Assembly (NCBI GenBank): GCA_023248955.1
Contig: JAHFDP010000047.1
Location: forward strand, 1-33,605
Origin: Deltaproteobacteria bacterium
GTDB lineage: Bacteria; Myxococcota; Myxococcia; Myxococcales; JAHFDP01
Length of the DNA stretch: 33,605 nt
Direction of reading: 5' to 3'
Position 1 is the first letter of the stretch; each line of letters starts with the position of its first letter. This document shows, one piece after another, positions 7,926 to 10,152 of this stretch. The notes beneath the pieces are model-generated. The model saw only the letters and a list, made by a program, of their open reading frames with translations, did not search any database and was not told where the DNA came from. Both the position numbers and the translations under genes were made by a program.

Positions 7926-8573
7926 CTACCGCTCTCCGAGCGCCTTGAGTATGGTCGAAAAAATGCCGTCCGGACTCCCAACGCCCTCGATAGCGGCAAG
8001 CAAACCACGCTCGGCGTAAAAAGCTCGCACCGGCGCAGTTTGACGCGCGTAGGTGAGCAAACGCTCTTGAACTTTTTCCGCCTTGTCGTCTTCACGCTGC
8101 ACAAGCACGCTTCCACACTTGTCGCATACGCCACTGCGAGCCGGCGGTGCGGACTGAACATGAAAAACCGTACCGCAAGAAGGGCAACTTCTTCGCCCGC
8201 TGGCACGCTCGACAACGAGCGAATCGGGAACATCGAGTGCGATAACCTTGTCGAGTTTGCGATCGAGGCGCGTGAGCAAGGTCGCAAGTGCTTCAGCTTG
8301 CGGAACCGTCCGGGGGAAGCCGTCAAGAATAAAACCACGCGACACCGAAGACAGGCCAAGGACCGACCCAATCAGGTCGATCACGAGAGCGTCCGGAACC
8401 AGTTTGCCAGCATCCATCAGCGATTTGGCTTGCTGACCCAACGGCGTCTGTTCAGCAACGGCCTTGCGGAGCATGTCACCGGTAGAGAGATGAACAGCAC
8501 CGTAGTGCTCAAGCAAACGCTTGGCTTGGGTGCCTTTACCCGCTCCAGGGGGCCCTAGCAAAACTAGATTCAT
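7926..8573 (-). CDS. adk: Adenylate kinase with zinc-binding LID domain
   Basis: It interconverts ATP + AMP and 2 ADP in the cytoplasm. The 215-residue product starts MNLVLLGPPGAGKGTQAKRL, with the P-loop at residues 7-15, and has GFILDGFPRT in the AMP-binding region. The LID carries four cysteines (C130, C133, C150, C153), as in zinc-containing long-form kinases. The ATG at 8571-8573 fits the family N-terminus; an in-frame upstream ATG at 8609 would add 12 unrelated residues. The start codon is the last three bases of the first 74-bp repeat unit, lies in the 3' arm of a perfect 11-bp hairpin and overlaps the stop of a 25-codon mini-ORF as ATGA. Its translation is therefore probably coupled to that leader. 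Confidence 0.97.
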   Translation of the reverse strand: MNLVLLGPPGAGKGTQAKRLLEHYGAVHLSTGDMLRKAVAEQTPLGQQAKSLMDAGKLVPDALVIDLIGSVLGLSSVSRGFILDGFPRTVPQAEALATLLTRLDRKLDKVIALDVPDSLVVERASGRRSCPSCGTVFHVQSAPPARSGVCDKCGSVLVQREDDKAEKVQERLLTYARQTAPVRAFYAERGLLAAIEGVGSPDGIFSTILKALGER

Positions 8574-8647
8574 GCGGCCCTCCGTTGAAAGGGCCGCATG
8601 GACCCGCAAGGGGGCGCCAGTGGCGCCTTGCAGGAAACCGGGTTCAT
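8570..8647 (-). CDS. Leader mini-ORF 3, 25 codons, ATGA-coupled to adk
   Basis: ATG at 8647-8645 and TGA at 8572-8570, with the TGA sharing bases with the adk ATG (ATGA). The peptide begins MNPVSCKAPLAPP and ends RPFQRRAA; it is identical to mini-ORF 2. A GGAGGG ribosome binding site lies inside its last codons, 4-6 nt before the adk start. It is part of the first 74-bp repeat unit (8571-8644). The peptide resembles nothing I know; the role may be in the act of translation rather than in the product. Coding status is inferred from the exact start, ribosome binding site and stop arrangement repeated three times. Confidence 0.55.
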   Translation of the reverse strand: MNPVSCKAPLAPPCGSMRPFQRRAA

Positions 8648-8792
8648 GCGGCCCTCCGTTGAAAGGGCCGCATGGACCCGCAAGGGGGCGCCAGTGGCGC
8701 CTTGCAGGAAACCGGGTTCATGCGGCCCTCCGTTGAAAGGGCCGCATGGACCCGTAAGGGGGCGCCAGTGGCGCCTTACAAGAAACAGGGGG
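8571..8792 (-). repeat. Three tandem 74-bp units with paired hairpins, between secY and adk
   Basis: Units are 8571-8644, 8645-8718 and 8719-8792. The first two are identical; the third differs at six positions (8755, 8778, 8781, 8787, 8791, 8792). On the transcribed strand each unit holds two hairpins. One is a perfect 11-bp stem, CATGCGGCCCT paired with AGGGCCGCATG around an 8-nt loop, with half of the ribosome binding site and the following ATG in its 3' arm. The other is GGCGCC-act-GGCGCC extended by a six-pair stem with a three-base bulge. The units have no spacers, so this is not a CRISPR array. A degenerate fourth start of unit (8793-8805) runs into the secY stop. Confidence 0.97.
8644..8721 (-). 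CDS. Leader mini-ORF 2, 25 codons, ATGA-coupled to mini-ORF 3
   Basis: ATG at 8721-8719 and TGA at 8646-8644, overlapping the next ATG as ATGA. The encoded peptide is identical to that of mini-ORF 3, because the two 74-bp units are identical base for base. Its own ribosome binding site is the GGAGGG at the end of mini-ORF 1. It contains an internal ATG (codon 17), in frame, that would yield only nine residues. Confidence 0.55.
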   Translation of the reverse strand: MNPVSCKAPLAPPCGSMRPFQRRAA

Positions 8793-8795
8793 CAT
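8718..8795 (-). CDS. Leader mini-ORF 1, 25 codons, first after secY
   Basis: ATG at 8795-8793, 10 nt after the secY TAA, with AGAGGG just upstream as ribosome binding site. TGA at 8720-8718 overlaps the next ATG. The peptide begins MPPVSCKAPLAPPYGS and ends RPFQRRAA; it differs from copies 2 and 3 at residue 2 (P for N) and residue 14 (Y for C). The unit differs from the others at six bases, two of which compensate each other in a stem. Having a different ribosome binding site from the repeats supports entry of ribosomes here after secY. Confidence 0.55.
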   Translation of the reverse strand: MPPVSCKAPLAPPYGSMRPFQRRAA

Positions 8796-8805
8796 ACGAC
8801 CCTCT

Positions 8806-10152
8806 TTACCCAGCGGCCATGGTGGCTTCACGGCGTGCACGGATGCGCGGCCCGCGTGGACCAGTGAAGCCTTCGTAGTGGCGCGTAATGAGGTGGCTCT
8901 CGATCTGGTTTACGGTGTCGAGCGCCACACCAACGACAATCAAGAGCGCTGTTCCTCCGAACTGGAACTGCACGCCAAACCACTTGGTGATAAGGCCAGG
9001 CAAAATGCAAATCACGGAAAGATAGAGCGCACCGCCAAACGTAATACGGGTAAGAACACCGTCGATATACTCTGCGGTTTTTTTCCCGGGACGTATGCCC
9101 GGAATATAACCACCGTACTTCTTCATATTGTCCGCAACATCAACTGGATTAAACGTTACTGCCGTATAAAAATAGGCGAAGAAGATAATCCCCACGATAT
9201 AGAGGCCGTTGTACATCCAGTTATCTCCGCCACGTGCACCAATAGCGTCCGAAACCTTTTTGAGCGGGGGGAACCAGCTGGCGAGCATTCCAGGGAAAAG
9301 CAATATCGACGAAGCAAAAATGGGTGGAATAACGCCCGCGGTGTTCACTTTTAGCGGAAGGTGCGTGGCCTGACCGCCCATCACACGTCTGCCGATCACG
9401 CGCTTCGCATATTGGACAGGAATGCGCCGCGACCCACTCTCGACAAAAACGACCACTCCGACTGTCACCACCATGAGCGCTGCAAGTACGAGAACACCAA
9501 GCTCGTTACCGCCCTGGTTATCCTTGAAGGTTGCAAAAGTTTGCGCAATGGCACTTGGAATGCGCGCGACGATACCGGCGAAAATGATCAGCGAAATACC
9601 GTTGCCGATGCCACGCTCGGTGATCTGCTCACCAAGCCACATGATGAACGCAGTACCGCTGGTCAGCGTCAAAACGGTGAGAAGCCGGAAGCTCCATCCA
9701 TGGGCCTCCTCGGGAACGACTAGCTCATTGCCAGCTTTGAGGCCCTCCAGGTAAACCGCGATGCCAAATCCCTGCACACAGGAGAGAACGACGCTGCCAT
9801 AACGCGTGTATTGCGTGATCTTCCGACGTCCCATTTCGCCCTCTTTGGAGAGCTTTTCCAGTGCCGGGATGACGACCGTCATGAGCTGGAAAATAATGGA
9901 CGAGCTCACGTACGGCATGATTCCGAGTGCGAAAATGGATAGCTGTTCGAGCGCACCACCCGTGAACAGGTTGAAGAGCCCGAGCAGGCCCGTCGAGCTG
10001 TCCATGACTTTCTTCATCACGGCGCGATTGACGCCAGGCGCGCTGACAAAGATGCCAAGCCGATATATGGCGAGGAGTGCAAGCGTAAAACCTAAGCGCT
10101 TGCGCAGCTCCTGCACCCGAAAGAGATTCGAAAACCCGCTGGCTAGGGACAC
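8806..10152 (-). CDS. secY: Preprotein translocase subunit SecY
   Basis: SecY is the channel of the Sec translocon in the inner membrane. The 448-residue product has about ten hydrophobic helices. Typical blocks include [20 protein letters not shown] in helix 1, [18 protein letters not shown] in the plug and helix 2 region, [12 protein letters not shown], and [10 protein letters not shown] in the ribosome-binding cytoplasmic loop. A GTG start (10150-10152) is preceded by GGAGA at a good distance and gives MSLASGFSN; no ATG lies nearby that would keep helix 1. The stop is followed after 10 nt by the chain of three mini-ORFs that leads to adk. Confidence 0.98.

Follow-up and report, generated by a model that had tools for sequence, protein, structure and literature searches.

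Mycobacterial MIRUs are the described repeats closest to the element reported here. They are seemingly mobile and insert at start codons, with an inner ORF coupled at -4 nt (2025 review, PMC12548453, citing Supply et al. 1997), and their insertion is likely to have minimal impact on the target gene (PMC12548453). At senX3-regX3, MIRU units of 77-bp and 53-bp occur, and H37Rv has three identical tandem 77-bp units (PMC4213456). The Rickettsia palindromic elements (RPEs) are palindromic selfish repeats of about 150 bp that are compatible with translation and fuse inside genes (PMC10969869).

In this study, we analyzed a 33,605-nt stretch of DNA (the window; contig JAHFDP010000047.1, assembly GCA_023248955.1) from a bacterium of the order Myxococcales, in which three short tandem repeats lie between secY and adk. 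The array very probably represents three tandem copies of a dispersed, MIRU-like mobile repeat. The element shares with MIRUs its short length, its occurrence at many loci, singly or in tandem, its insertion at start codons, and an inner ORF that overlaps the target by 4 nt. Both MIRU lengths, 77 and 53 bp, likewise equal 2 mod 3, and three tandem units are found in H37Rv as well. DTGA coupling sites were reportedly proposed as the MIRU target by Supply et al. in 1997. The phylum, in contrast, is unrelated, and the likeness is one of described anatomy, not of sequence. The best reading of this anatomy is that the element would work like a MIRU, and we place it as a variant of the MIRU kind rather than as a MIRU. 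We know of no MIRU report of a terminal hairpin that covaries with the start codon or of a 57-bp in-frame form at 8-nt overlaps, and we found no earlier report of MIRU-like repeats in the phylum of the window. The original prediction, made from the letters of the window, knew of no described leader of this type for adenylate kinase; the arrangement has a published precedent in the MIRUs (PMC12548453).

Results

All features of the array lie on the (-) strand. Between secY (8806-10152, TAA stop at 8808-8806) and the adenylate kinase gene adk (7926-8573, start codon 8573-8571) stand three repeat units with a period of 74 bp, each a mini-ORF of 25 sense codons, ATG included, followed by TGA: unit 1 (8718-8795, MPPVSCKAPLAPPYGSMRPFQRRAA), unit 2 (8644-8721, MNPVSCKAPLAPPCGSMRPFQRRAA) and unit 3 (8570-8647), the last two being identical and differing from unit 1 at 6 of 78 positions. 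ORF coordinates and TRF (3.2 copies, score 416, the sole tandem array in the window) agree with the original prediction of tandem 25-codon units whose TGA and ATG overlap as ATGA, as at 8721-8718 between units 1 and 2, and in which the TGA of the last mini-ORF overlaps the ATG of adk. The GGAGGG expected ahead of each following start is also present, 4 nt 5' of the ATGs at 8721, 8647 and 8573. The proposed ribosome path from secY through the mini-ORFs to adk holds in part: the overlap geometry accommodates it from the mini-ORFs to adk, whereas mini-ORF 1 begins with ATGC 10 nt after the secY TAA, a junction that is close but without overlap. A native-looking candidate SD for mini-ORF 1, AGAGGG, is located at 8805-8800. 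The RNA fold of the array is far more stable than those of shuffled sequences (z -9.0).

Sequence searches of the window genome, as the original prediction had suggested, located the 74-bp unit immediately 5' of purA and, as an array, of nrdR, ending exactly at the start codon in both cases, and a single copy within a broken tRNA gene; with the 57-bp form included, the short repeat is found at 5 loci. The search for a 65-bp (22-codon) version, by a pattern and then by a covariance model, took in 145 genomes from the order and 195 from the phylum. This version is present in one other family of the order (f7), with about 18 to 20 copies in G044 (about 15 full-length loci), 4 in G035, and one copy each in G018, G047 and G029. 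Units also occur in arrays of 2-3. Within these 145 and 195 genomes, families of the order beyond f7 and that of the window gave no convincing match, and the sole weak match outside, in G017 (E 0.003), is without the anatomy of the element. Rfam held no match to the repeat at gathering score. A phage or plasmid origin was set aside, as no match was found in plasmids, phages or viral contigs, and a pattern scan of a contig collection gave one match only, in Pseudomonas, probably by chance.

The 22-codon copies terminate precisely at the start codons of rplW, aroC, aroQ, murD, pheT, nrnA, cvpA, smc, truA and adk, and likewise at those of a SpoVR-like gene, a CoA-transferase subunit, an RND pump, an epimerase, an ExeA-like ATPase, a YihY-like gene and a CcmD-like ORF, the names in relatives being assigned by reading translations. 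All full-length copies at protein genes whose right end is present (the G047 copy, interrupted by the contig end, was left out of this tally) lie in sense orientation and end exactly at the NTG that opens either a real gene or the following unit.

Several copies have features of their own. The nrdR array (L002 1660-1780, G000:C70) contains a run of N, and its true copy number is therefore probably above the assembled one. At L005 1100-1230 (G000:C31), a 74-bp copy interrupts a truncated fragment of a tRNA gene within the T-arm, near an intact gene for a tRNA of that kind. The 5' arm of this copy duplicates 8 nt from the 3' end of the tRNA, and no other copy was seen away from the start of a protein gene. 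A repeat-like stretch bounded by inverted repeats of about 25 bp (ctagggcgtgtcccgaaattcgcac), possibly a MITE, is weakly similar to the element (L249, G000:C32:12900-13900). The 74-bp protein-gene sites of the window genome (adk, purA and nrdR) are all nucleotide-related; those of the relatives are not.

The last observation bears on the proposal of a dedicated leader for adk, or for nucleotide metabolism, in which the array would sense translation or the nucleotide state and its copy number would set adk expression. The coupling of the mini-ORFs by overlap and the stable hairpin around the adk SD and start are also in line with this proposal. However, the search of related genomes, which the original prediction had likewise called for, placed the identical type of cassette before about 20 genes of unrelated function in sister genomes, and the adk cassette is absent in most order-mates, a comparison that covers order-mates of other families only. 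Moreover, the peptide sequence is without codon selection, as described below. The distribution of copies thus leads us to reject an adk-specific leader, and the proposal as a whole appears improbable.

Junctions that are filled in one genome and empty in another demonstrate precise insertion after the NTGA. At the rplD-rplW junction, sister genomes read gctggc|ATGAACCGC, and G044 reads gctggc[ATGAACCCG ... GACCATGA]atcga with ATCGATTC as the downstream flank; the aroC, murD, pheT and aroQ junctions follow this pattern. Where the two ends differ, the left NTGA is usually that of the empty site. The left ATGA at aroC, murD and aroQ is the empty-site sequence and the right GTGA is the element's own, with pheT as an exception (GTGA on the left, ATGA in the empty sites). 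Since the left and right NTGA often differ, a classical target-site duplication was rejected, and insertion without duplication fits better. The left flank at purA and adk in the window genome resembles the 3' arm (AGAGGTCCCCGTGA / AGAGGGCGCCGTGA), a likeness that a longer duplication may explain, although both are ribosome-binding sites. For most sites in f7, the upstream gene terminates at the TGA of the left NTGA, implying that the target is the stop/start overlap.

The distance from NTGA to NTGA is 2 mod 3, with the frame open, in 33/36 units, and the original inference that a unit length of 74 bp sets the stop/start overlap thus extends across loci. Of 14 units that depart in length from 65 and 74 bp, 11 retain the frame (P = 7e-4 vs one third), truncated forms with 3 to 10 codons among them. 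The P value is approximate, as truncated forms were identified by visual inspection, mostly anchored on the upstream stop. Two more of the 14 stay open through in-frame fusion to the next ORF or gene. At the ExeA-like ATPase locus, the G029 copy is full, diverged and open, and the G044 copy is truncated. Because the overlap geometry is conserved across loci and indels, passage of ribosomes from the mini-ORFs to adk is well supported by the anatomy, and the mini-ORFs are probably translated and coupled to adk.

The same observations weigh on another explanation, that of a plain palindromic (REP-like) repeat in which the ORF and the overlaps would be incidental. The element is indeed a short dispersed palindrome, several relatives encode many RAYT-type Y1 transposases, and one copy lies within a tRNA gene. 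The genome search, in which the original prediction would have recognized a plain repeat by intergenic copies without overlap, found instead that the protein-gene copies with a right end all keep the sense orientation and lie exactly at a start codon, though wholly intergenic NTGA is common (74/935 NTGA sites in the window), and the 2 mod 3 length persists even in truncated copies. We therefore consider incidental overlaps very unlikely.

With regard to how the element might move, it resembles REP/RAYT and IS200/IS605-type elements in being palindromic, in its insertion after a tetranucleotide apparently without target duplication, and in an end tetranucleotide that presumably pairs with internal sequence. 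Unlike them, it is without a linked transposase, and the window genome (95.6% complete) gave no match to the Y1/RAYT transposase family (PF01797). Matches to PF01797 number about 20 each in G044 and G035 and 4 in G013, which is without a full-length 65-bp copy, and relatives with few or no copies encode several Y1/RAYT transposases. No clear link to RAYT as the driver emerges, given the window genome without a Y1 match and the copy-poor relatives with several. A RAYT-like Y1 transposase gene is located about 1 kb from one copy in G044 (L048 2428-3027, G044:C266).

A 57-bp form (0 mod 3) has TGARCCYGRTC-GACGCGCCGAAGGCGC in common with the main element and follows a CTGA bearing the upstream stop, within an 8-nt gene overlap (ATGNCTGA). 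In G013, it inserts 19 in-frame residues near the N terminus of NuoD, where relatives have an empty site. In the window genome, three tandem 57-bp units (L248 678-848, G000:C91:24176-24346) extend a BKACE-like protein at its N terminus by 3 x 19 in-frame residues; they follow the upstream stop in ATGGCTGA. These two loci are those known for the 57-bp form, and for this reason it is suggestive only that the form may be matched to the overlap length, i.e. 65/74 bp at 4-nt and 57 bp at 8-nt overlaps. In adding in-frame peptides to NuoD and the BKACE-like protein, the 57-bp form is comparable to the RPEs; the main form, unlike RPEs, is a separate mini-ORF between genes, and the array of the window is not in-frame within a protein gene.

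The terminal hairpin of unit 3 (8571-8600, 13 bp, -24.3 kcal/mol, z -6.2) holds in its 3' arm both the SD GGAGGG (8583-8578) and the adk start codon, and equivalent hairpins are located at 8645-8674 in unit 2 and 8719-8748 in unit 1. An inner hairpin, GCGCC-act-GGCGC (8614-8626 in unit 3), is kept in nearly all copies. The terminal stem pairs the next start codon and the preceding bases with CCAY.., and 98.8% of cells are paired with changes on both sides, a covariation score reached by 0/500 shuffles. In the window genome, the 10-bp arms of 5 sequences from 4 loci (adk, nrdR, purA, tRNA) differ and yet are complementary; the copy in the tRNA gene ends in ATCA, and its opposite arm carries the matching change. 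By energy alone, the f7 form, whose arms are short (5 bp), is not unusually stable (z -0.7).

These stems also account for the apparent conservation of the peptide. The minimum changes at the three codon positions among the 17 intact 65-bp copies are 13, 20 and 17, with a pN/pS of 0.82 in the mini-ORF frame vs 0.76 and 0.75 in the remaining two forward frames, and no codon-level selection on the peptide was detected in these copies. The original prediction suggested small peptides as one possibility. A functional peptide family of 22-25 residues (M-N-P-x-x-x-A-P-x-A-P-P-x-G-S...), seemingly conserved between families of the order, was rejected on these codon statistics and is given hardly any credence, the more so as forms cut down to 3 to 10 codons have survived.

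Discussion

The mobile-repeat interpretation draws on the anatomy, dispersal, empty sites, frame conservation and hairpin covariation described above, with the one copy in a broken tRNA gene, away from a start codon, counting against it. Mobility itself, as a process, we infer from these observations. The repeat would insert directly 3' of an NTGA at a gene junction, typically one whose ATG or GTG starts the downstream gene and whose TGA ends the upstream gene. The mini-ORF within the element would then begin at the native start codon, and the element's end would supply its own SD and a new NTGA, serving as the stop of the mini-ORF and the new start of the downstream gene; a length of 65 or 74 bp (2 mod 3) would preserve the stop/start overlap. 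Tandem copies may arise by repeated insertion or by slippage.

A ribosome that ends on the upstream gene, or is bound at the native SD, would initiate the mini-ORF, whose translation would open the terminal hairpin. It would stop at the TGA and restart at the overlapping start with GGAG(G) just 5', and the terminal hairpin probably ties the downstream gene to ribosomes completing the mini-ORF. An effect on the adk level may follow. Presumably, the target gene remains expressed, and the element would thereby be tolerated and spread without silencing essential operons.

It is conceivable, although we hold it only tentatively, that the mobile repeat is specific for stop/start junctions, its NTGA end being selected by pairing to a guide inside the element (CCAY with RTG), and that its form is fitted to the reading frame (65/74 bp at 4-nt overlaps, 57 bp at 8-nt overlaps). 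If true, such an element would be transparent to translation and would follow a targeting rule of its own.

The present findings extend the idea behind MIRUs, i.e. mobile DNA hidden at start codons through rebuilt coupling, to an unrelated phylum. We had not previously met descriptions of empty sites at orthologous junctions, of truncations that preserve the frame, of a covarying start-codon hairpin or of a related form suited to 8-nt overlaps. Insertion into start/stop overlaps thereby becomes testable outside a pathogen. The findings also call for caution, in that conserved ORFs of 20-25 codons ahead of genes may be repeats rather than regulators.
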